A stretch of DNA of 26,730 nucleotides from a virus: IMG/VR virus record IMGVR_UViG_3300025308_000348, positions 1-26,730 of that record. One strand, given 5' to 3'. A model generated the notes under the pieces. That model ran no database searches, was not told the DNA's origin, and worked only from the letters and a program-made list of their open reading frames with translations. Shown here piece after piece: positions 8,371-22,016 of this stretch. The translations under genes and the position numbers were made by a program. Within the stretch, counting starts at the first letter, position 1; each line of letters opens with the position of its first letter.

Positions 8371-8499
8371 AATATGGGAGTATAACGACTTAAAGCATAA
8401 GTGCCGTTACAGCGGTTTTGCGTAGCAAAAGTAAAGCTGTAAGGCGCTTCACATGCTGTAATGGCATTTACGCATGGTTACAAACCGTGCGCTAAGTAC
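8360..8499 (+). repeat. Cluster of imperfect palindromes at the left edge of the cassette region (site 1)
   Basis: Three stem-loops follow each other. CTCCTATAT (8360-8368) pairs with ATATGGGAG (8372-8380) over a GAA loop. A long arm 8395-8413 pairs with 8436-8456, with the tip TTTTGC-GTA-GCAAAA at 8416-8430. CGCATGGTT (8471-8479) pairs with AACCGTGCG (8483-8491) over ACA. In addition GCCGTTACAGC (8403-8413) and GCTGTAATGGC (8455-8465) are complementary in 10 of 11 bases. The last stem is followed by GCTAAGTAC (8491-8499), which resembles a mutated GTTRRRY core. It looks like one or two degenerate attC sites. The stretch 8500-8538 holds nothing else recognised. Confidence 0.5.
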
Positions 8500-8538
8500 A
8501 AGATTAAATTAGAATTGCTAAACTAAAATAAATTTTAT

Positions 8539-8754
8539 ATGACAAATGCAGAAAAACGCCTTTTAAAATATGTTTCAAATCCAGATGAATATAATGTTTC
8601 GCACACAACGTTTCCTTGTAGTGTTTCTCATTATGAAATATATCAGAAAAGCAAAGGTATTATAGATATTATAAAAGATATTACTGCAAATAATATGATT
8701 TTAAAAGGAATTATAACACAAGAGCAAATTGATAGAACAAATAGATTTAAATAG
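8539..8754 (+). CDS. Cassette gene 1: hypothetical protein
   Basis: 71 residues (MTNAEKRLLKYVSNPDEYNV at the start; an IIDIIKDITANNMILKGI helix near the end). No family recognised; no membrane segment or metal motif. The size, the isolation between palindromes and the lack of operon-like packing fit a gene cassette cargo gene. Its last codons overlap the left arm of the next palindrome (8738-8748), as often seen in integron cassettes. The left cassette boundary is unclear because site 1 is degenerate. Confidence 0.55.
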   Translation: MTNAEKRLLKYVSNPDEYNVSHTTFPCSVSHYEIYQKSKGIIDIIKDITANNMILKGIITQEQIDRTNRFK

Positions 8755-8787
8755 TATGGTTAAAATTTATTTGCATGTGTTATGGTT
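8738..8787 (+). repeat. attC-like palindrome, site 2
   Basis: L''-like arm CAAATAGATTT (8738-8748) pairs with AAATTTATTTG (8763-8773) in 10 of 11 positions. After 5 nt follows the R'-like core GTTATGGTT (8779-8787), which is the exact reverse complement of AACCATAAC at 9136-9144, the R'' position of the next site. A matching R'' for this site's own cassette was not found with confidence. Confidence 0.65.
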
Positions 8788-8831
8788 TCGTGCTTTGTTA
8801 ATCAGATTGTTACACTTAAAATTATATCAAA

Positions 8832-9131
8832 ATGGATTTATCAACTTACAAATTTCCAGAAGTAACGAAAGCCGATTTAGCCTTTCCAACATTTAACACA
8901 CCAAAAGAATTGGTTTCAGAAGCGGAAAAAAGAAACCCACAAAAGGGAATGAAAAAGTTTTCAGAACTATTTTATAAGGGTGGAAAATTTGACTTTAAGG
9001 ACGATGTTAAAGGAACATGGAAAGAAAATGCTTTTATGTATGCACGTGCTTTAATGGGGTCGTGGGCTCCTAAACATGAACATAAAGAACTTGTTGTCGG
9101 GATGATTTTAGAAGAGTGTCTGGTTCTTTAG
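8832..9131 (+). CDS. Cassette gene 2: conserved hypothetical protein
   Basis: 99 residues, soluble. Blocks such as ADLAFPTFNTPKEL, FSELFYKGGKFDFK and YARALMGSWAPKHEHKE give the impression of a conserved small family common in Bacteroidota accessory DNA, but I cannot assign a function. The gene lies alone inside a 416-bp unit (8780-9195) whose two ends carry complementary 9-mers, GTTATGGTT and AACCATAAC. The stop is 5 nt before the R'' motif, typical for a cassette gene. The 45 bp between core and ATG could hold its promoter. Confidence 0.6.
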   Translation: MDLSTYKFPEVTKADLAFPTFNTPKELVSEAEKRNPQKGMKKFSELFYKGGKFDFKDDVKGTWKENAFMYARALMGSWAPKHEHKELVVGMILEECLVL

Positions 9132-9135
9132 CATG

Positions 9136-9203
9136 AACCATAACGGTGGTAATATGATGCAGCGAAGCGACCCGTAGGGTGCATTATATTACGTGTTATG
9201 TAC
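9136..9203 (+). repeat. attC-like palindrome, site 3 (best preserved)
   Basis: The order is R'' AACCATAAC (9136-9144), spacer GGTGG, L'' TAATATGATGCA (9150-9161), an 18-nt loop, L' TGCATTATATTA (9180-9191, 11 of 12 paired), spacer CGT, R' GTTATGTAC (9195-9203). The loop contains ACCC-GTA-GGGT, a second small hairpin. Unequal spacers on the two sides and the GTT core are hallmarks of integron attC sites. R'' complements the core of site 2, R' complements GTACATAAT at 10074. Confidence 0.75.
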
Positions 9204-9261
9204 TGGTACGGTAAATACAGTACAAAGTTGATTAAAAATACAAACGTAATAATTTTTAAAA

Positions 9262-10068
9262 ATGTGGGATGGCAAATATGCTTTTGAAAAAAGCAAAATA
9301 ATACAAGGTGATTGCCTTGAAAAAATGAAACTGATACCTGATGGAAGTATTGATATGATTTGTTGCGATTTACCATACGGTTTGACTAATAACAAACTTG
9401 ATATTGTAATACCCTTTGAGCCACTTTGGAAAGAGTATTATAGAATACTTAAGCCAAACGGTGCAATAACACTTTATGCACAGGGTTTATTTTATGTGGA
9501 CTTGGTACAAAGCAATAGAAAGCATTTTAGATATGACTTAGTATGGAATAAAGAACTTGTTAGCGGATTTTTAAATGCTAACAGAATGCCATTAAGGGTA
9601 CACGAACAGATAGCTGTTTTTTATAGGAAACTACCTACGTATAACCCACAAATGACAGAAGGAGAGCCGCTACATAGCAAGGGAAACGCTTACAAAGTAA
9701 AAGACCACAAAAACCAGAATTACGGATATTTTAAACAAACAGATGATGAAAGAGCTGGAGAAACTTTGAAGTACCCTAAAAGTATAATTACATTTCAAAA
9801 ACCACACCCAAGTAAGGCAGAACATAGAACAGAAAAAAGTGTTGAATGTAATGAATGGCTTGTAGAAACTTATAGCAACAAAGGTGATTTAGTTCTTGAT
9901 AATACAAGTGGGGTTGGAACACTTGCAGAAGCTTGTATAAATACAAACAGAGACTTTATAATTATTGAGAAAAATCCAATTGACTTTGAAAAAGGCAAAA
10001 ATAGGGTGGGAAAAATTTTTAAAAATTATGGACTTGACCTACAACCTTTATTATATGAACAGATGTAG
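9262..10068 (+). CDS. Cassette gene 3: DNA methyltransferase (N6-adenine or N4-cytosine, beta-type order)
   Basis: 268 residues. KIIQGDCLEKMKLIPDGSID (about 12-31) leads into catalytic motif IV, DLPYG (about 36-40), a D-x-P-Y form common in phage enzymes of this class. The SAM-binding motif I lies late, LVLDNTSGVGTLAEAC (about 210-225), so the order is IV then I, as in beta-class enzymes, with the target-recognition region between (HEQIAVFYRKLPTYNPQMTE). It would methylate adenine-N6 or cytosine-N4 in duplex DNA. No restriction partner is encoded next to it, so self-protection against host restriction or gene regulation is likelier than a restriction-modification system. It is the largest cassette cargo with a clear function. 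Confidence 0.85.
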   Translation: MWDGKYAFEKSKIIQGDCLEKMKLIPDGSIDMICCDLPYGLTNNKLDIVIPFEPLWKEYYRILKPNGAITLYAQGLFYVDLVQSNRKHFRYDLVWNKELVSGFLNANRMPLRVHEQIAVFYRKLPTYNPQMTEGEPLHSKGNAYKVKDHKNQNYGYFKQTDDERAGETLKYPKSIITFQKPHPSKAEHRTEKSVECNEWLVETYSNKGDLVLDNTSGVGTLAEACINTNRDFIIIEKNPIDFEKGKNRVGKIFKNYGLDLQPLLYEQM

Positions 10069-10073
10069 TGCTT

Positions 10074-10097
10074 GTACATAATGTTGCAAGTTATATG
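10074..10097 (+). repeat. Left half of site 4: R''-like core and 19-bp inverted-repeat arm
   Basis: GTACATAAT (10074-10082) complements the left-edge core GTTATGTAC (9195-9203) in 8 of 9 bases. TAATGTTGCAAGTTATATG (10079-10097) is the perfect reverse complement of 10400-10418, 302 bp further on. Confidence 0.7.
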
Positions 10098-10139
10098 TGA
10101 CGGAAAAATTAAGAACATTAATTATACAACCAATAACTT

Positions 10140-10310
10140 ATGAAAAAAATAGAAAAGAAATTAGTTACTGAAAAGCAATTAATTGAAAAAGCAAAAAAAT
10201 TTATGAATAATAATCCTGATTTGTGCAAAGGGGTTAAATCAATGTATCATGTTGCCAATCTAATGGCTAAATTTTGCTTTGAAATTAATGATTTAAAAGA
10301 GAGTTCTTAA
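10140..10310 (+). CDS. Small hypothetical protein inside the split palindrome
   Basis: 56 residues, basic N-terminus (MKKIEKKLVTEKQLIEKAKK) and a helical C-terminus (SMYHVANLMAKFCFEINDL). It could be a small HTH-like or regulatory peptide; no family recognised. It sits between the two arms of a perfect 19-bp inverted repeat (10079-10097 and 10400-10418), i.e. in the loop of a very large attC-like site. The in-frame ATG follows an AAC-rich leader (CAACCAATAACTT) and the codon use resembles the neighbours. Short, so moderate confidence. Confidence 0.45.
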   Translation: MKKIEKKLVTEKQLIEKAKKFMNNNPDLCKGVKSMYHVANLMAKFCFEINDLKESS

Positions 10311-10484
10311 TTTTTATGGCATATGATAACTTAGTTAGAATTAGTTATGTGGATGATCGAACTGGATTTTATTAGAGTATCATATGGCATGAGGGAAGGC
10401 ATATAACTTGCAACATTAGAATTAATTATTTTAGGCATTTTGAGGGCTGAAAGGAAGGAAAAGCGAAGCTGAGCGAATAATTAA
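10311..10484 (+). repeat. Gene-free repeat-rich stretch (sites 4/5)
   Basis: There is no credible gene here. CATATGATA (10320-10328) pairs with TATCATATG (10378-10386). Two core-like GTT sequences, GTTAGAATTA (10334) and GTTATGTGG (10344), lie between them. CATATAACTTGCAACATTA (10400-10418) is the right arm of site 4. TTAGAATTAATTATT (10416-10430) pairs perfectly with AATAATTAATTCTAA (10476-10490), so 10416-10567 behaves as a cassette of about 152 bp without a gene. Its core has C-A-TTAGAA where G-TTAGAA would be expected. Confidence 0.65.
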
Positions 10485-10574
10485 TTCTAACGCTTTGGCT
10501 GTATGGCGAGAGCCGAAGTTTACGAAGGCGAAAAGCCATTCAGATAATGCTTTCGCTATACAGCCTGTTGGCAA
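10485..10574 (+). repeat. attC-like palindrome, site 6
   Basis: R'' TTCTAAC (10485-10491), spacer GCTTT, L'' of 17 nt GGCTGTATGGCGAGAGC (10497-10513), a 35-nt loop containing a GGC-GAAAA-GCC mini-hairpin, L' GCTTTCGCTATACAGCC (10549-10565; 15 Watson-Crick and 2 G-T pairs), one spacer base, R' GTTGGCAA (10567-10574). This core is exactly complementary to TTGCCAAC at 10882-10889. The remaining 10575-10635 holds only AT-rich leader for the next gene. Confidence 0.75.
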
Positions 10575-10635
10575 TTGGACTGCAAGATTAAGTAAGTAAA
10601 ATGTAAATAATTACGAATAATTTAAAATTTTTATT

Positions 10636-10857
10636 ATGACACAACATATATATTTCATAGCACTTGGGGTGTGCTTAGTATTGATAAACTTTAAAATAGA
10701 AAAAATTTTAAAAGCATTATCTGAAAGCCAAAGCGTTGGCAACAAGAAAGGCAAGAAAGAATTTTGCCTTAATTGCCAACATGGAACTGGATATAATTAT
10801 GATTACTGTGCAGATTGTTTGGCTAACAATTTTTATAAATACAAAAAGGCAAAATGA
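10636..10857 (+). CDS. Cassette gene 4: membrane-anchored zinc-ribbon-like protein
   Basis: 73 residues. The N-terminus MTQHIYFIALGVCLVLINFK is a single hydrophobic helix; after a linker (ESQSVGNKKGKK) follows FCLNCQHGTGYNYDYCADCL, a CxxC...CxxC zinc-ribbon pattern (about 43-62). So it would be a membrane-anchored zinc protein with the ribbon in the cytoplasm. I do not recognise the family. It occupies the 406-bp cassette 10568-10973 whose end cores are perfect 8-bp complements. Confidence 0.55.
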   Translation: MTQHIYFIALGVCLVLINFKIEKILKALSESQSVGNKKGKKEFCLNCQHGTGYNYDYCADCLANNFYKYKKAK

Positions 10858-10881
10858 CTTGCCTGACTGCTTGCAGTCTTG

Positions 10882-10980
10882 TTGCCAACGGTCGGTTACA
10901 TGTTGTCGAAAGCCAACCACTACCGCCCGATTCAGCGCACCGCTTTTGTATGGCTTTTGCAATATGTAACATGTTAGCCA
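10882..10980 (+). repeat. attC-like palindrome, site 7
   Basis: R'' TTGCCAAC (10882-10889), spacer GGTCG, L'' of 21 nt (10895-10915, starting GTTACATGTTG and ending AAAGCCA), a 35-nt loop, L' TGGCTTTTGCAATATGTAAC (10951-10970, about 17 paired), spacer AT, R' GTTAGCCA (10973-10980). The GGTNG spacer after R'' is the same as in site 3 (GGTGG). Its R' is complementary to TGGCTAAC at 11918-11925. Confidence 0.75.
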
Positions 10981-11017
10981 TCTGATGCGGATTTTACGAA
11001 CTAAAGTTGATACGAGA

Positions 11018-11821
11018 ATGAATGAAAAAAAAGAAAAAAAAGAGGGGGGATTTTTAGACGTTATTTCTTTGGGAGCAGGAAAGCAAAGTACTTATATGCT
11101 GTTGCAGGCACTTGAAGGTAAATTTAAATATAAACCCGACTTTGCAATATTTAGTGATACTGGTTGCGAACCAGACTATGTTTACTCATATTTTGAATGG
11201 CTTAAAGACCTTGTAAAAACTAAATACAACTTTGATGTTATTGTAGTAAGTGAAGGAAATATTTTGACCGATACGCTTGAATATGTGAACGGCAAAAAGA
11301 AAAGAGTTGCTTCGCTTCCGCTTCGGCTTGGTTCTGGTTGTTTGATAATGCGACAATGTACTAATGATTATAAGATTAAACCACTTAGACAGCATTTACA
11401 AGCCGTAAGGGGTGAAAATAAAATTCGCCTTTGGATTGGCATAAGCCTTGATGAAATGGAGCGAATGAAAGAGAGTAATGTGAAGTACATTAAAAATTAC
11501 TATCCATTAATTGAAAAACAGATACGTATTGACAGTATTGTAGATTGGTATAAGAAAACAAATACACCGGAACCAATGAAAAGTGCATGTTTAATTTGCC
11601 CTTTTCATTCTGATGCTTACTGGAAGCGATTTAAAAAGGTATTTCCGAAAGAATTTAAAAAGGCTTGTGATTTTGACGATGCTATTAGATTATATCCAAA
11701 TTTGAAAAGCAAAGCCTATTTGAGCAAACATTTGAAACCATTAAAAGAAATAGATTTTAGTTATGAAAACAGTTTATTCCCTGAACTTATTGAAGAATGC
11801 GAAGGACTTTGCGGTCTTTAA
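11018..11821 (+). CDS. Cassette gene 5: PAPS-reductase-like PP-loop protein
   Basis: 267 residues from ATG 11018; an in-frame ATG at 10985, four bases after the core, would add 11 residues. The PP-loop is FLDVISLGAGKQSTYMLL (about 12-29; SxGxxS form). ADP-pyrophosphatase-type context follows: FAIFSDTGCEPDYVYSYF (about 43-60), SGCLIMRQCTNDYKIKPL (residues about 106-123), GISLDEMERM, and late ACLICPFHSDAYWKRF. These are hallmarks of phage phosphoadenosine-phosphosulfate reductase-family proteins, whose reaction in phages is unproven. The cysteines suggest thiol or metal chemistry, perhaps sulfur transfer to nucleic acid. No Dnd or Ssp partner genes are seen. A terminator follows the stop. Confidence 0.8.
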   Translation: MNEKKEKKEGGFLDVISLGAGKQSTYMLLQALEGKFKYKPDFAIFSDTGCEPDYVYSYFEWLKDLVKTKYNFDVIVVSEGNILTDTLEYVNGKKKRVASLPLRLGSGCLIMRQCTNDYKIKPLRQHLQAVRGENKIRLWIGISLDEMERMKESNVKYIKNYYPLIEKQIRIDSIVDWYKKTNTPEPMKSACLICPFHSDAYWKRFKKVFPKEFKKACDFDDAIRLYPNLKSKAYLSKHLKPLKEIDFSYENSLFPELIEECEGLCGL

Positions 11822-11827
11822 TCCAAA

Positions 11828-11863
11828 TTGCCCAATAGGGCAAAAGTGCGTGGGCTTTTTTTT
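11828..11863 (+). terminator. Probable rho-independent terminator after cassette gene 5
   Basis: TTGCCC (11828-11833), loop AATA, GGGCAA (11838-11843). Alternatively GCCCA (11830-11834) pairs with TGGGC (11851-11855), which places the T-run 11856-11863 immediately after the stem. The second fold is the better terminator; the two cannot form together. Confidence 0.6.
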
Positions 11864-11897
11864 CTTTTTTGGTCAAATACCCACTAAACTTTATACG

Positions 11898-11925
11898 AGC
11901 CACATCAGTAGCATTTGTGGCTAAC
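11898..11925 (+). repeat. R''-like core of the last cassette (site 8, right half missing)
   Basis: TGGCTAAC (11918-11925) is the exact reverse complement of the left-edge core GTTAGCCA (10973-10980). AGCCACA (11898-11904) and TGTGGCT (11916-11922) can also form a small hairpin. No matching L' and GTT core could be recognised before the next gene at 11958, so the array seems to end or decay here. Confidence 0.55.
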
Positions 11926-11957
11926 TACCTTATAGATTTAGTTCAAAAAATTGCACT

Positions 11958-12194
11958 ATGAATAAAACTATTGAAAATACCAATAAACTATTAAATTTTG
12001 TTTCTAAAAAATTTGAATCAGGAGAATTGAATAATGAAAGTTTAGTGCAATTAATTGAACTATCTGGAAGCTATCTAAATTTAAGAACTATTCCAAAATA
12101 CCAGCATGATACTGGTTTAAGTTATAATGGTGTGAAAAAAAACCGTATAATTAAAGTGCTTTTTAGTGTAAAGTTCGTGATAGATAATGATTAA
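11958..12194 (+). CDS. Small conserved hypothetical protein, possible DNA-binding
   Basis: 78 residues. The end, LNLRTIPKYQHDTGLSYNGV followed by KKNRIIKVLFSVKFVIDND, resembles a small HTH/MerR-like module seen in many Bacteroidota mobile elements (helix-turn then a 'GVKK...VKFVIDND' strand pair). The first ~40 residues are helical and acidic. It is separated from the fibre block by an inverted repeat and a strong terminator, so it is transcribed as the last gene of the accessory segment. Function unknown. Confidence 0.6.
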   Translation: MNKTIENTNKLLNFVSKKFESGELNNESLVQLIELSGSYLNLRTIPKYQHDTGLSYNGVKKNRIIKVLFSVKFVIDND

Positions 12195-12824: not shown

Positions 12825-14252
12825 ATGGCTACATATACTAAACCAGCAGATACTATTGGGGGAATAAAAGGATTGTGGTTTATTCCTGTTGACGATGTAG
12901 CATCGTTTGGTGATGTTATTTTAAACGAACTGCAAAGCATTACTTTGCTAAACGGTAAAAGCTGGAAATACATCTATAGCATTTATTCAGATAGGGAGTT
13001 CTACGAAAATAAAAAAGAAAATAAAGAAGGAATATCTTTCGAGAAATCGTTTAAAGCATTCTTCCCTGGTTATTCGGTAGAAAGTCTTTTACAGTTCGAA
13101 GAAATGAAATATACCCGCTTTTGTATAGCTTATCAAGACAATAACTACCTCTTTAAACTTACCGGAACAATTAATAATCCGCTTAACTTTAGATATAAGT
13201 TAATCACCGGAAGCACTGGAGCAGACAATAGTGGTGTTGAATTTGAATTTTACGGGAATAGCAAAATAAGAATCTTAGAAGTAACAAACGAAATATTACA
13301 TGTTTTACCAATTACTTACACCGACTGGTTTTTGCCAAGTATAGATGAACTTCAGGAAATAAAAAACAATCTGTATAATTATGGTCTCGGTTCATTTAAT
13401 TCAGGGTATTATTGGTCTAGTTCAGAATACGATGCAATATCATCATATTGCCTTGATTTCACAGGTTCGGCATCAGTACTTGAAAAAACAGAAACTGCAC
13501 ACGTAAGAGCATGTCGTTCATTTACAGATGTTTCTGGAAAGTATAATTTAAGAGATATAGGCCCTGCCGGGGGATTGATATTTTACATTGATGACACGAC
13601 ATATTATGAAGCAGCTCCTATAGATATTGAAAGGAATACATTTAGTAATATAACAGACAAGGCAATTAGAACAACAGAAACGGCAATTGGAACAGGCGCC
13701 ACAAACACGGCAGCAATTATTGAACAAGCTAGTGGGGCGAATGATTGGTTTTTACCAAGCAAAAACGAGATAGCCGCGATGTATAATAACTTAAAAATTT
13801 ATGGATTAGGAAATTTTACAAATAATTTTTATTGGACATCTAGCGAATATAATGCATCTTATGGTGTTTTATTTAATTTTTCAGATGGTACCAATTCTAT
13901 TTTATATAAAAATTCTTCCATAAGAATAAGGCCTTGCAGGAAATTTACTTCATTAACTCAATATTCTCTAAGAGATATAGGACCTGCCGGTGGATTGATA
14001 TTTTATATAGATGGAAACAATTATTACGAATCTAATCTATATGATCTTGTTGGTATTTGGTCAAATGTTTATCCTGGATTAATTGGAACAACAAGCGCCA
14101 ATATAGGCGAAGGATTGAATAATACGAATGAAATAATAGCTCAGGCAGGCCACATAGATAGTTCGGCGAAGCTGTGCTTAGATTACGATAATAGATACGC
14201 GCACTCATATTCAGCAGCCAAGCTTTGTAACGATTTAGAAATAACAGCATGA
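12825..14252 (+). CDS. Probable fibre/adhesin with Lcl (DUF1566) C-type-lectin-like repeats
   Basis: 475 residues. The first ~150 residues form a domain shared with the next protein (VASFGDV, later FFPG, then GTINNPL and SGVEFEFYGN). Then come Lcl/DUF1566 modules: DWFLPS (about 167-172) to YYWSSSEYD and VRACRSF (about 195-232); a full repeat starting RDIGPAGGLIFYID (about 243-256), DWFLPS (about 307-312), YWTSSEYNA, IRPCRKF; and the first half only of a third repeat (RDIGPAGGLIFYID, about 384-397), ending at SAAKLCNDL. DUF1566 folds resemble C-type lectins and typically bind ligands, so host recognition is likely. The third repeat lacks the WFLPS/YWSSSE half: either a real truncation or loss of an end. 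Overlaps the next gene by 4 bp. Confidence 0.7.
   Translation: MATYTKPADTIGGIKGLWFIPVDDVASFGDVILNELQSITLLNGKSWKYIYSIYSDREFYENKKENKEGISFEKSFKAFFPGYSVESLLQFEEMKYTRFCIAYQDNNYLFKLTGTINNPLNFRYKLITGSTGADNSGVEFEFYGNSKIRILEVTNEILHVLPITYTDWFLPSIDELQEIKNNLYNYGLGSFNSGYYWSSSEYDAISSYCLDFTGSASVLEKTETAHVRACRSFTDVSGKYNLRDIGPAGGLIFYIDDTTYYEAAPIDIERNTFSNITDKAIRTTETAIGTGATNTAAIIEQASGANDWFLPSKNEIAAMYNNLKIYGLGNFTNNFYWTSSEYNASYGVLFNFSDGTNSILYKNSSIRIRPCRKFTSLTQYSLRDIGPAGGLIFYIDGNNYYESNLYDLVGIWSNVYPGLIGTTSANIGEGLNNTNEIIAQAGHIDSSAKLCLDYDNRYAHSYSAAKLCNDLEITA
13549..14013 (+). repeat. Direct repeat within the fibre gene (13549-13593 and 13969-14013)
   Basis: Two 45-bp copies, 420 bp apart, encode LRDIGPAGGLIFYID and are about 41 of 45 bases identical (starting TAAGAGATATAGG). 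This marks a fairly recent internal duplication of the Lcl module. Confidence 0.85.
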
Positions 14253-15475
14253 CAAATATAATCCAGATATCAGAAGTTTTTGCAGGCTTGCGTTCCATTA
14301 AAATTTATAAAACAAGTGATATTGTAGCTTTTGGCGATGTTATAAATGGAGTTGTACAGGGAATAAGTGCATCGGATTATACCGAAATACAATTTTCGCA
14401 AGGTGCGGGTAATTACGAACACGAGAGTAAAAATAACAAATACCTGATTAATGAATCGGGATTTTCAGTCTTTGTTCCAGGAAATGATATTGATCAAATA
14501 CTTCAGTTAATTAATTTAGACAACGAGCGCTTTGTTGTTGTTTTTACCGATAGAAATGGAACTGAGTGGATTGCCGGAACAATTGATAATCCATTAAGAC
14601 TAACAGATAAATACAGCACAGGCAAATCGCCTTCAGATAAGTCGGGGCGCGAATTTATTATATCCGGCAACCAGCTTAAAACAATTTATTCGTTTACGCA
14701 AGTTGATAGTTTTCAGCTTGATTTTTATGTATTTGACATAATTGGAGATGTTGAAAATGCGTTAATTACAATAGGAACACTATCTATTTTAACAAATAGT
14801 GATGGTTGTGCAATATTTAATATTTATGAAGGAACATATAATTATATGATATCTAAGATAGGATATTTAGATAGTGTAGGTTCGGTTGTAATTAGTGGTT
14901 CAAATGTATCAGAAGAAGTAGAAATGAACGGGAGTTGTGAAATAACATTTCACGCTGAATACAATAGCCAAAATCTGGAAAATATATTGATTACGATTAA
15001 AGATATCACAAATACAAATACAATAGATTCGGGGTACACAGATGAAGATGGAGATTATAGTGTTACACTATACGATGATATATATTATATCATCGTTGGA
15101 GAATTACAGTGGGATTTAAAATGTACAAATCATTTTATTACGGCTCCTGTTCCTTCGTATACAGATAATTTAATTATTATTCAAAAAGACTTATGTGCAG
15201 TTACCTTCGCGGTTAAAGATTCTTCTAATAGTCCTATTATAGGTGCAGAAATAGGAGGTGCGTTCTTTGTTTTATACAATGATTTAGATAGTTATTTTGG
15301 TCATCAGGATCATATATTAATAACAAACTCAAATGGGGAAGTAACCGTTAATGAAATTTCAGGAGATTATACTTTTGAAATTAAGAAATCTGGATACTCT
15401 TTTGCCAATCCTGGGAGTGTACTTGTTAACACTTCCGAAAATGAAACAATGACAGTAAATATTGTAATGACATAA
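14249..15475 (+). CDS. Probable fibre/adhesin with Ig-like (carboxypeptidase-regulatory-type) repeats
   Basis: 408 residues. The N-terminal ~150 residues match the same domain as the preceding gene (IVAFGDV, VFVPG, GTIDNPL, SGREFIISGN), so both should attach to the virion in the same way. The rest consists of about three beta-rich repeats of the CarboxypepD_reg/Ig-like type: FDIIGDVENALITIGTLSIL then NSDGCAIFNIYEGTYNYMIS; ITIKDITNTNTIDSGYTDED then GDYSVTLYDDIYYIIV; VKDSSNSPIIGAEIGG then NSNGEVTVNEISGDYTFEIK. Each has the 'S/D-xG then tyrosine' turn typical of these stalk or carbohydrate-contacting domains. No signal peptide, as expected for virion proteins. It starts on the stop of the previous gene (ATGA). 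Confidence 0.65.
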   Translation: MTNIIQISEVFAGLRSIKIYKTSDIVAFGDVINGVVQGISASDYTEIQFSQGAGNYEHESKNNKYLINESGFSVFVPGNDIDQILQLINLDNERFVVVFTDRNGTEWIAGTIDNPLRLTDKYSTGKSPSDKSGREFIISGNQLKTIYSFTQVDSFQLDFYVFDIIGDVENALITIGTLSILTNSDGCAIFNIYEGTYNYMISKIGYLDSVGSVVISGSNVSEEVEMNGSCEITFHAEYNSQNLENILITIKDITNTNTIDSGYTDEDGDYSVTLYDDIYYIIVGELQWDLKCTNHFITAPVPSYTDNLIIIQKDLCAVTFAVKDSSNSPIIGAEIGGAFFVLYNDLDSYFGHQDHILITNSNGEVTVNEISGDYTFEIKKSGYSFANPGSVLVNTSENETMTVNIVMT

Positions 15476-18895: not shown

Positions 18896-19453
18896 TTGAA
18901 AAAGACATTTCGCATATTACATCCTTACTCGCTGGAGAAGAACTATTTTTTAGCCATCGACGAAGAGATGAATCGTTTACAACCACACGAATGGGGTTGT
19001 ATAATGGACATTGATACCATGCCGCTACAACCCAACTTTGGTCATCAGCTGCAGGAATATATCTACAAATATCCCGATACCGGATTATTTACCTGTTATG
19101 CTTCTCGATGCCATTACACCGTACAGGTGCGCAAAGGTACTAATATGATGAACTCCGACATATTGTATCACAAACGACATTCGGATGCTTGTGCAAAAGA
19201 GTTAAATCTTACAGTTAAAGAAATTGACCGCAAGATTGCCGGACACCTGATGATGATTAAAAAGTCAACATGGGATCTTATACGTGCCGATGTTAAAAAA
19301 CAATGTAGCAGCAAAAAAATACTGGGAGTTGATACTAAAATAAGTCTCGAAATATTAAAACACGGGCTTAAGATAAGGCTTATGCGCGGTATTTACATTT
19401 TCCACTACCTAAGATTAGATACCAATTTTGGATATAAAAATCATTTGTTATGA
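18896..19453 (+). CDS. Glycosyltransferase, GT-A fold
   Basis: 185 residues from TTG 18896 (LKKTFRILHPYSLEKNYFLA); a GTG at 18863 would add 11 unlike residues, so the start is uncertain. HEWGCIMDIDTMPLQPNFG (about 30-48) contains the DxD metal site used by GT-A enzymes; AGHLMMIKKSTW (about 116-127) and GVDTKISLEILKHGLKIRLM (about 142-161) match the acceptor loop and the ED/H-type helix of GT2-like enzymes. It would transfer a nucleotide-activated sugar. It begins the four-gene sugar cluster and overlaps the next gene by 4 bp. Confidence 0.7.
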   Translation: MKKTFRILHPYSLEKNYFLAIDEEMNRLQPHEWGCIMDIDTMPLQPNFGHQLQEYIYKYPDTGLFTCYASRCHYTVQVRKGTNMMNSDILYHKRHSDACAKELNLTVKEIDRKIAGHLMMIKKSTWDLIRADVKKQCSSKKILGVDTKISLEILKHGLKIRLMRGIYIFHYLRLDTNFGYKNHLL

Positions 19454-20232
19454 AAATAATTGGATTAACCAGAATACGTAATGAAGCAGGCATTATACAA
19501 GAAACACTTGATCATATGGCAACGTTTTGTGACGAAGTATATGTTTACGACGATTTTTCGACAGATAATACGGTAGAAATATGTGAAAATCATCCTGTTG
19601 TAAAAGGGATTATAACAGCCAATCATTGGGATACTGATCGTAAACGTGCCGAATGGCAAAACAGGAAATCGGTACTAGAGATGGCTCAAAAATACGCATC
19701 GCCATTCGATTGGTTTGTTTATATGGATGCCGACGAACGTATCGATTTTGATTTTTCTATGCTTAAAGCAATGCCTTTGCAGGTTGTTGGTATAAAAATG
19801 AAGCTTTTCGATTTTTATATTACACCAGAGGATGTTAACCTACACTATAGTGAACGAAAGTATTGTGGTCAGGAATATAGAAATATATTAATGGCTTTTC
19901 GAAACCTTAAAACACTAGATTATTCGTCTCCTGATCAAAGAGAAATACACTTACGAAGCAGTGGGCAGGTTTTAAACATAGGCTATGTTAAGCATTACGG
20001 CAAAGGAATATCTGTTGAGCAGTGGGAAGATACGTGTAACTATTATGCAAATCACTTTCCTAAATATGCGAAGAAATGGAAAGCCAGAAAAGGAAAAGCC
20101 ATACACACCACATCGTCGTTTGGGAGCAAACTTATTCTGTGGGAACAAAGAATAAGTAAAGGCGTTCTTTTAACACCTGAAATAGAAAAACATAACATTT
20201 ATGAAGATATTACTAACGAACCACTGGCTTAA
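19450..20232 (+). CDS. GT2 family glycosyltransferase
   Basis: 260 residues. IIGLTRIRNEAGIIQETLDH (about 3-22) and DEVYVYDDFSTDNTVEIC (about 28-45) give the classic nucleotide-sugar fold; YMDADERIDFDF (about 91-102) carries the DxD metal site. C-terminal KHYGKGISVEQWEDTCNYYA and a basic tail complete a waaE/LPS-type GT2 enzyme. No membrane segment, so cytoplasmic. It starts on the stop of the previous gene (ATGA) and overlaps the next by 32 bp, a tightly coupled cluster. The acceptor (host surface sugar, phage virion protein or DNA) is not shown by the sequence. Confidence 0.85.
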   Translation: MKIIGLTRIRNEAGIIQETLDHMATFCDEVYVYDDFSTDNTVEICENHPVVKGIITANHWDTDRKRAEWQNRKSVLEMAQKYASPFDWFVYMDADERIDFDFSMLKAMPLQVVGIKMKLFDFYITPEDVNLHYSERKYCGQEYRNILMAFRNLKTLDYSSPDQREIHLRSSGQVLNIGYVKHYGKGISVEQWEDTCNYYANHFPKYAKKWKARKGKAIHTTSSFGSKLILWEQRISKGVLLTPEIEKHNIYEDITNEPLA

Positions 20233-21094
20233 GAAGCTGGGTGGATCAGAAACATTTACATACACACTTGCCGGCGAACTTACCCGCCTGGAGCACGAAG
20301 TACATTTGTTTACCAACATACCTGGCGCAATAAGTCAACGTATTTGCTCCGACTTTAGTATTCCGCTTATTACAGATCCACGAACACGCAAATACGATAT
20401 GGTGTTGGCGAATCACAACAGCTGTGTAAGCAAGATTTATCCTACAAATAACAAGGTAGTTCAAACTTGTCACGGAATAGTGCCACAACTGGAACAACCT
20501 TCGTCGTTGGCCGATTTGTTTGTTTCTGTATCGGAAGAAGTGCGAGATCATCTTTTATCTCTTGGTTTTGAATCAACAATTATCCGTAATGGGATCGATT
20601 GTGAACGATTTAAGCCAACCACTAAGTTAAACGGTGAGATTAAAACAGTATTATCATTATCACACTCCGAAGAGCTTAATGAAATGCTTCACAATGCTTT
20701 TGCCGGCCATAAAATACGATTCATTAGCCTGAATAAATTTAAAAACCCTGTTTGGGATGTAGAAAAATACATTAATCAGGCCGATATGGTTGTTTCTCTT
20801 GGCAGGGGTGTCTTTGAAGCAATGGCTTGTGGACGACCAGTACTTGTTTTAGATCACAGGCCATACCAGGACGCAATGGGTGACGGACTACTCACTTTTG
20901 GAAATATCGATAAATCTATTTATAACAACTGTTCTGGCCGCGCATTTAAAAATAAAAACATAAAACCAATGATTGATTTTGCTATCGGGTATTACAGGTC
21001 GTCGATAGGTGAGTGGTGCAGAAATTACGCACTTAAAGAGCTGAATATTATTAATCAAACACAGAAATATTTACAACTTTATGAATCAATTTGA
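20201..21094 (+). CDS. GT4-like (GT-B fold) glycosyltransferase
   Basis: 297 residues. KILLTNHWLKKLGGSETFTY (about 2-21) is the N-terminal GT-B opening with the glycine loop; TCHGIV (about 89-94) and FESTIIRNGIDCERFKP (about 123-139) are the linker motifs typical of GT4; SLGRGVFEAMACGRPVLVLD (about 199-218) is the C-terminal donor-binding E-x7-E-like region. The glutamates are only partly conserved. It starts inside the previous gene (32-bp overlap), so its start is less certain, though the glycine loop demands this N-terminus. Confidence 0.82.
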   Translation: MKILLTNHWLKKLGGSETFTYTLAGELTRLEHEVHLFTNIPGAISQRICSDFSIPLITDPRTRKYDMVLANHNSCVSKIYPTNNKVVQTCHGIVPQLEQPSSLADLFVSVSEEVRDHLLSLGFESTIIRNGIDCERFKPTTKLNGEIKTVLSLSHSEELNEMLHNAFAGHKIRFISLNKFKNPVWDVEKYINQADMVVSLGRGVFEAMACGRPVLVLDHRPYQDAMGDGLLTFGNIDKSIYNNCSGRAFKNKNIKPMIDFAIGYYRSSIGEWCRNYALKELNIINQTQKYLQLYESI

Positions 21095-22016
21095 TGTAGT
21101 TTATGCCATCGGAAACGGTAGCCGGTGGCACGATAACGAGCTCCGATTCTCGTTACGCGCAATAGAAAAAAACCTGAAAGGGGTGCGCAATATAGTTATT
21201 GTTGGTAAACAACCCAATTTTATTGACAAAAACAATGTCATTTTTATTCCTGCAGACGATCCATTACAGTCAAATGCCGATGGCAACATTGCGCTTAAGG
21301 TAATGAAAGCCTGTATGGATGAACGTATATCTGAAGATTTTCTTTTCATTAACGACGATCATATCATTAACGCTCCTATGCATGTTAGCGATATTGGGTT
21401 TTACCATTGTGGTAATTTCGAAAGTTTTCCAGAGACTTTCTGGCATTCTGAATTGCATCGTCAACGTTTAAAAAGAACATACGAAGTGTTAAGAAAAAAA
21501 GGCTATTCAACATTTCATTTCGACATTCATGTGCCCATTATTATTAATAAAAAGAAGTTTTTAGAAATAGTACCTACATTCGATTTTAAATTTGATATCG
21601 GGTATACCATGAAGTCTATTTATGCAAATCCTGTTGTCCCTGCCAATAAAAAAGAACATGTCGGCGATTTGAAGATAAAAATATTTAATTTTAAGACTCT
21701 CGAGAAGCTCAAAGAGATATTCGAATCAGCAACATTCATTTCGTATAACGATAATGGTTTAAACGGGTATTTAAAATACTTCCTGGCCTATTATCTTTCG
21801 TTGCCATCAAAATATGAAACATACGACATGGAAAAAGACCCCGTAATTCATATTTTAGAATATCTGAGCATAGAAAACAGGGATTATAAAAAAGGTGTTG
21901 AATTGTATAATAAATATGGTCGCAATACAAATTTGAAGGTAATATTCAGGCACAAAGAATCGGAAAAAACAAGAGAAAAGCTGATGTATAAGCTTGCGCA
22001 GCTCTGTGAGAGTTAA
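21081..22016 (+). CDS. Stealth-like sugar-phosphate transferase with a C-terminal shared phage domain
   Basis: 311 residues. DVVYAIGNGSRWHDNELRFS (about 5-24), RNIVIVGKQPNFI (about 36-48), and FLFINDDHIINAP (about 87-99) follow the Stealth family CR1/CR2 blocks, which transfer hexose-1-phosphate in bacterial capsule synthesis. The HxD-type residues HFDIHVPIIINKKKF (about 148-162) fit the CR3-like part. The last ~55 residues (DYKKGVELYNKYGRNTNLKV then EKTREKLMYKL) match the N-terminus of the next, non-enzymatic protein. So an enzyme is fused to a domain that also occurs on a likely virion or assembly protein. The transfer reaction is inferred from the family. Confidence 0.75.
   Translation: MNQFDVVYAIGNGSRWHDNELRFSLRAIEKNLKGVRNIVIVGKQPNFIDKNNVIFIPADDPLQSNADGNIALKVMKACMDERISEDFLFINDDHIINAPMHVSDIGFYHCGNFESFPETFWHSELHRQRLKRTYEVLRKKGYSTFHFDIHVPIIINKKKFLEIVPTFDFKFDIGYTMKSIYANPVVPANKKEHVGDLKIKIFNFKTLEKLKEIFESATFISYNDNGLNGYLKYFLAYYLSLPSKYETYDMEKDPVIHILEYLSIENRDYKKGVELYNKYGRNTNLKVIFRHKESEKTREKLMYKLAQLCES

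Follow-up and report, generated by a model that had tools for sequence, protein, structure and literature searches.

Positions 8380 to 11925 of the window, the whole stretch of 26,730 nucleotides analysed here, hold an integron-type array of gene cassettes, carried by a temperate phage of Bacteroidota; its integrase has either been lost or was never there. The array is best read, with a probability of about 0.8, as a CALIN-like remnant of a lineage of phage integrons. A first-pass annotation of the sequence had already proposed a CALIN-like cassette array inside a phage, and the cores, a chance test and a covariance model (CM) have borne this out. At a wider level, Bacteroidota phages quite probably carry a self-contained class of integrons, composed of a recombinase that lacks the IntI-specific additional domain (I2), an attI-like site 5' of the recombinase gene and hairpin-first cassettes recombining via the coding strand. 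This class would be the mirror image of chromosomal integrons and would draw on a separate phage cassette pool, while the chromosomes would hold matching, largely unrecognised integrons.

The window corresponds to G000:C14:87098-113827 in a source genome of 3.66 Mb that is 99% complete. Two copies of a 16-bp repeat, TTTGTGGTACCACCTG, are found, one at C14:86075 and the other at C14:133291, where it borders a tRNA-Phe gene and has a tyrosine integrase on the minus strand next to it. The repeat pair, the tRNA gene and the adjacent integrase place the window inside an integrated prophage of 47.2 kb. Rfam and tRNA scans of the window found nothing. As in other CALINs, the genes of the array are small and co-directional, with one or a few in each unit (Table 1). 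The parts at 8755-8778 and 10083-10491 are degenerate and fall outside the regular scheme.

Table 1. Features of the array and of its 3' boundary (window coordinates; CM, viral attC covariance model).
Feature	Position	Strand	Evidence or remarks
attC-like site 1, R'' GTATAAC ... R' GTTACAA	8380..8486	+	CM match 8380-8483, 26.3 bits, E 1.5e-4
71-aa ORF, first cassette	8539..8754	+	No matching tail core found; site after ORF truncated
Half attC, truncated, before second cassette	8755..8778	+	Sequence; stem looked for, none found
Cassette unit GTTATGGTT...AACCATAAC	8779..9144	+	99-aa ORF 8832-9131, phrog_36680 (function not known)
attC site 2	9138..9201	+	CM 39.9 bits, E 5e-8; folding top -11.7 vs bottom -8.1 kcal/mol
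Cassette unit GTTATGTAC...GTACATAAT	9195..10082	+	N6/N4 DNA methyltransferase 9262-10068, PF01555 1.7e-20
Irregular unit, 15-nt inverted ends (perfect or nearly), 56-aa ORF 10140-10310	10083..10414	+	Could alternatively be an attC with the gene in its loop
77-bp unit without ORF, ends ATTAGAATTAATTATT / AATAATTAATTCTAAC	10415..10491	+	
attC site 3	10485..10573	+	CM 32.8 bits, E 3e-6
Cassette unit GTTGGCAA...TTGCCAAC	10567..10889	+	73-aa ORF 10636-10857; ends pair 17/20 nt
attC site 4, extrahelical T in 5' arm	10883..10979	+	Stem scan, reciprocal cores both sides
Cassette unit GTTAGCCA...TGGCTAAC	10973..11925	+	PAPS-reductase-family ORF 10985-11821, phrog_424 3e-38
Possible attI remnant GGCTAAC|TACCTTATAGATTTAG	11918..11942	+	Position where relatives have integration site
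78-aa ORF	11958..12194	+	phrog_18952 6e-6; occupies place of integrase in sister phage

The ten core words on which the first-pass annotation had rested its proposal all stand where it had placed them (10/10). Two of them, GTTGGCAA and TGGCTAAC, have nearby second copies, at 10735 and 10820 in the order listed. Extended matching nevertheless favours the partners originally assigned, and the stretch at 10567, GTTGGCAA-TTG-GACTGCAAG, matches the tail that ends at 10889, which reads GTTGGCAA-CAA-GACTGCAAG when reverse-complemented. The reciprocal GTT/AAC cores, which lie at both cassette ends as in a CALIN, far exceed chance: between 8370 and 11930, nine GTT-started 8-mers recur downstream as their reverse complement, while 500 dinucleotide shuffles give 2.3 +/- 1.6 and never reach nine, and each of 17 other 3.56-kb segments of the same phage gives one to three. 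When hairpin and reciprocity are counted jointly, the array contains three instances against 0.04 in the shuffles (0/500) and none in any of the 17 control segments. The five-unit scheme initially drawn from these cores is only partly retained. The cores are present, but the stretch 10083-10491 is irregular: two units with 15-nt inverted ends abut there with no hairpin between them. The 77 bp between the cores of the 15/15 pair hold no gene.

Pairing between the two ends of a cassette extends beyond the core. In a comparison of the leader with the reverse-complemented tail in 26 chromosomal and 39 viral cassettes, positions 1-9 agree almost fully, a mismatch is conserved at positions 10-11 (position 11 agrees in 0/26 chromosomal units) and agreement returns from position 12 to about 15, with the cassette ends pairing to about 17 nt. 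The window cassettes follow the same rule, most clearly in GTTGGCAA-(TTG/CAA)-GACTGCAAG, with 17 of 20 nt. Arranged as in the predicted excised circles, the window sites fold into one long stem, the top strand being the better one in all three.

With regard to the attC sites themselves, a covariance model was trained on 36 sites from other viral contigs, the window being excluded. This model, our version of the attC check that had been suggested for the array, matches sites 1, 2 and 3 of Table 1, all on the plus strand, and finds no further match elsewhere in the 26.7-kb window. Stem scan and CM taken together give four sites with the R''/L''/L'/R' layout, of which the independent CM finds three; the CM misses site 4, and no complete attC was found after 11925. 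The window sites have phage-type spacers of about 5 and 2 and top-strand wobbles, as does the phage lineage. A CM search of the host genome, in which 150 of 1229 candidates were scored, gave one chromosomal attC of genus type on contig C4, a match that is no census since this search missed even the window's own sites.

The polarity of the sites sets phage and chromosomal arrays apart. The longer spacer lies on the R'' side (spacer5 > spacer3, in gene direction) in 57 of 59 viral sites and 3 of 3 window sites, against 1 of 51 chromosomal sites, and wobble pairs favour the top strand by 89:10 in viral sites and the bottom strand by 76:10 in chromosomal ones. By folding energy, the top strand is the more stable in 55/59 viral sites and in 3/3 from the window, and the bottom strand in 34/49 chromosomal sites. 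A recount of polarity by unit agrees with the spacer and wobble counts. Furthermore, the viral CM matches chromosomal arrays on the minus strand only (17/17). In phage arrays that were not used for training, 23 of its 26 matches are on the plus strand, and two of the remaining three belong to an oppositely oriented part of contig L258. One expectation of the first-pass annotation is not supported: the G^TT core had been assigned to a cassette with its hairpin downstream of the gene, whereas phage polarity is inverted and a natural insertion in contig L192 carries its hairpin upstream. Provided that recombination uses the strand that folds better, as it does in classical integrons, the hairpin of a phage cassette would stand before the gene.

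This natural insertion becomes apparent when L192 is aligned with L193. L192 contains 455 bp extra, flanked by 2198 and 2082 identical bases, and the two records differ by exactly one cassette at an AAC| junction, which answers the call for a search for cassette gain or loss at the cores of related phages. The insert comprises a hairpin, a GTTAAGCAG leader, a 62-aa ORF and a tail CTGCTTAAC, and lies exactly between GCCTAAC and TACGTGATATATAG (junction AAC|TACGTGATATATAG). As judged from these sequences, the insertion is of the hairpin-first form and has an attI-like target, AAC|TA..ATATATA, as the polarity predicts. No integrase was found in the L192 and L193 contig records. The end of the window array, GGCTAAC|TACCTTATAGATTTAG, resembles this insertion site (AAC|TACGTGATATATAGATTAAG). 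An attI-like site is conserved in chromosomal and phage relatives, and the window match to it is weak, with a weight-matrix score of 4.4 bits against 10.5-20.9 for true sites and rank 14 of 1169 AAC positions. Indels between L196 and L197 were also considered as cassette events and were ruled out, as they are not attC-bounded. Most of the comparison contigs are of metagenomic origin.

Cassettes related to those of the window occur in other phages, and for both the 99-aa and the methyltransferase cassettes the homology breaks at the cores, as had been foreseen. The left end of the 99-aa cassette is present in the 462-kb phage LR756500 and in six IMG/VR contigs, starting exactly at GTT and following hairpins other than the window's; the right end TTAGCATGAACCATAAC is common to most of these seven viral records, and the genes in between mostly differ. 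A search of the array DNA against the phage collection returned methyltransferase matches and one informative match, to the huge phage LR756500, starting at the GTT of the 99-aa cassette. The DNA homology of the methyltransferase cassette with L201 runs from 9194 to 10081, which is the unit itself, and ends at the cores. Reciprocal arrays are found in LR756500, L167, L174/L178, L217 and others. On the question of which flanking hairpin, left or right, accompanies a gene, these homologues give no simple answer. L223 and L225 have a unit in common and neither of its hairpins, so a gene and its hairpin are sometimes separated. It is the L192/L193 insertion that points to a hairpin travelling with the gene downstream of it.

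No integron integrase or relative of one was found in the window, as originally noted; a 78-aa ORF lies directly 3' of the array instead. The sister phage G059, whose terminase is 76% identical to that of the window phage, has its own array at 24236-28340, followed directly by a 267-aa integrase without I2. Different cassettes had been expected at the same place in this phage, and this was refuted, as only about 160 bp are found there and the array lies elsewhere, beside the integrase. A 169-kb phage shows the same order, with an array followed by a 289-aa I2-less integrase. A search with these two integrases showed that 26 IMG/VR contigs, the sister phage included, encode an I2-less IntI-like recombinase. 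Reciprocal arrays precede the integrase in 11 of these contigs and follow it in none. The array genes of these contigs point towards the integrase, except in part of L258, and many of the contigs have AAC-TA..ATATATA between the last tail and the integrase.

The host genome also encodes an integrase related to these, which meets the suggestion that an IntI-type recombinase be looked for there. This recombinase has 381 aa, stops 70 bp short of the end of contig C2 and is assigned to NCBIfam NF040815 ('site-specific tyrosine recombinase/integron integrase'), scoring 213 bits on TIGR02249 (cut-off 265); its named relatives are mostly from Bacteroidota. Its best PDB match by sequence is VchIntIA (2a3v), in which 57 aa stand where the host enzyme has 15, and a Foldseek search with its model (pLDDT 78.6) also puts 2a3v first. 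The chromosomal enzymes have W-x(6-8)-W repeats at the N-terminus, a candidate replacement for the additional domain, whereas the two phage enzymes are without these repeats. In the family, the first active-site Arg motif and HxLRH are separated by 86-92 aa (90-92 in nearly all of the family), against 133-134 in six classical IntI, and on sequence evidence the host and related-phage integrases are without the I2 domain. Classical IntI form their own clade with support 100/100, and the I2-less integrases fall outside it. Chromosomal relatives have reciprocal attC arrays downstream of the integrase, where visible, with genes pointing away and a conserved TATAAAC[AT]AG|TTA often between integrase and array. 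No arrays were found beside alphaproteobacterial XerA-type controls. The idea that only a host integrase would serve is not supported, since the sister and related phages encode their own beside the array; the host may nevertheless have supplied the enzyme for the window array.

The observed sites, cores and their chance test, polarity, integrase families and positions, together with the one natural insertion, suggest how such a system might work. A cassette of the lineage would begin with a hairpin site, continue with a short leader and a single small gene, and end in a tail core. The leader and the tail, as inverted copies of about 17 nt, would on excision as a circle close round the hairpin into one long stem, and an IntI-related tyrosine recombinase without the additional domain would recombine the folded single strand with the attI-like AAC|TA..ATATATA. 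This target would lie at the end of the array that faces the integrase; in many phages the recombinase gene comes directly after the array. The recombinase of the phage lineage is related to the host chromosome's own integrase, and either might have served the prophage. Since the phage sites mirror the chromosomal ones, it is the coding strand that folds better in the window and that is probably recombined, and each hairpin would travel with the gene downstream of it.

Other explanations have to be weighed against a remnant of a phage-integron lineage. The phage could have taken its cassettes from a chromosomal integron of the host via the host integrase, which would make the array an ordinary CALIN. 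The IntI-like integrase of the host, situated so close to a contig end, and the genus-type chromosomal attC on C4 are in keeping with this, as is the knowledge that phage CALINs exist and that some of them are substrates of a class 1 integrase (PMC9892861). It is nonetheless unlikely, given that the window sites have the polarity of phages and not that of the host genus, that a search of viral records found cassette relatives in other phages and that the sister phage has both its own integrase and its own array.

Remnants of small transposons or MITEs, with terminal inverted repeats that mimic attC cores, seem very improbable. Units with inverted ends of 8-17 nt, the nearly perfect 15-nt ends of the units at 10083-10491 and the sharing of a unit without its hairpins by L223 and L225 would all fit such elements. 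Conversely, the ends vary between units and match within each unit, the units are separated by hairpins that obey a fixed rule of spacers and wobbles, and a transposase was seen neither among the window ORFs nor by Pfam. The CM matches and the L192/L193 insertion, a hairpin plus unit at an attI-like site, make this reading unlikely. Least credible of all is the reading that the hairpins resemble terminators and separate unrelated accessory genes of the phage, the core matches being due to chance; the hairpins do sit between co-directional genes, but neither the core count in the shuffles nor the joint signal in the control segments ever reached that of the array, and within the window the CM is specific to the array region.

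The integron lineage, if so read, bears on several assumptions. Surveys select integrases by the additional domain of IntI, which has been taken as a mark of integron recombination and as necessary for it. That arrays with reciprocal attC chains and an attI-like site adjoin I2-less integrases suggests that the domain is dispensable or replaced by something else, and that the integrons of Bacteroidota and their phages are undercounted. The published integron surveys compared here require the domain, and for Bacteroidetes the complete integron named with IntegronFinder 2.0 is that of Salinibacter, which would explain why Bacteroidota integrons have been missed. A phage integrase with a separate, mirror-oriented cassette pool would be a trade route for anti-restriction methyltransferases and other accessory genes, and such a pool would be a natural experiment on attC strand choice and cassette orientation.

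Phage CALINs have already been published by Qi et al. 2023 (PMC9892861), and one of the published examples comes from a Bacteroidota (Polaribacter) phage. Like the window, these CALINs have attC-type sites, small cassettes that include DNA methyltransferases and no adjacent integrase. The survey recognised integrases by IntegronFinder, that is, by the IntI-specific domain, and the parts of it compared here describe no I2-less phage integrase, no upstream array with genes facing the integrase and no inverted attC polarity. These three features look new with respect to the open-access papers compared here. As in classical integrons, the cassettes of the lineage mostly hold a single gene, the cores are of the RYYYAAC/GTTRRRY type, R' and R'' of one cassette are reciprocal, the hairpin sites are asymmetric between strands, and a tyrosine recombinase has an attI-like site next to it. 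The lineage differs from classical integrons in that its recombinases lie outside the IntI clade and have the 86-92 aa spacing in place of the 133-134 aa of IntI with the additional domain, in that the cassette ends pair to about 17 nt and in that phage sites mirror the usual polarity, the better-folding strand of attC being the bottom one relative to the gene in classical integrons and the top one in the window. The Bacteroidota chromosomal arrays (L050-L055, L087, L089, L099, L108, L120 and others) share with the phages a related I2-less integrase, the same attC spacer and wobble rule and the extended cassette ends, but have array and attI-like site 3' of the integrase and the opposite attC polarity, an arrangement of which the phages are the mirror image.

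A family of cassettes with a member in the window and relatives at several other loci (see table) presents constant ends, GTTATGGTTTCGTGCTTT...TTAGCATGAACCATAAC, which enclose many unrelated small genes, with the right end, TTAGCATGAACCATAAC, supplying stop codons in two frames. Such constant ends around varied genes are relevant to gene acquisition by cassettes. Small ORFs are also found within the loops of attC-like hairpins, at three loci.

Reciprocal cassettes form a long chain in a huge phage of 462 kb (LR756500.1, 380000-429000; L081), in which no PF00589 recombinase was found. In another locus, L258, two cassette arrays lie upstream of one phage integrase in mutually opposite orientations, and in both of them attC polarity seems to go with the direction of the genes. 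In several assemblies, contigs end within a few hundred bases of the integrases, on the array side, and arrays are therefore probably under-assembled systematically.

Elsewhere in the window, two long ORFs (12825-15475) are probable tail-fibre genes. The first contains repeated GPAGGLIFYID-type modules. Over this region the sister phage shows similarity that is repeated and rearranged. Three clustered ORFs at 19450-22016, amid structural genes, have the appearance of sugar- or glycosyltransferases.

Coordinates of the features (G, genomes; L, comparison loci; rc, reverse complement)
Feature	Location	Further members
Constant-end cassettes	window 8779-9144	L074, L162-L167, L217, L221-L227
ORF in hairpin loop	G059 rc 27945-28240	
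ORF in hairpin loop	L074 5234-5345	
ORF in hairpin loop	window 10074-10440	
Contig breaks, array side	G000:C2, G004, G005, G041, G055	viral L237, L238, L242, L245, L251, L254
Integrases with N-terminal repeats	L013:9429-10574	L060, L059, L038

Chromosomal integrases (L013 and its relatives L060, L059 and L038) carry one to three copies of an N-terminal repeat, ~45 aa long, whose core is W-x(6-8)-W; this repeat is absent from the two phage enzymes (267 aa in the sister phage G059, 289 aa in a 169-kb phage). These repeats may resemble HARP-type fork-binding domains.
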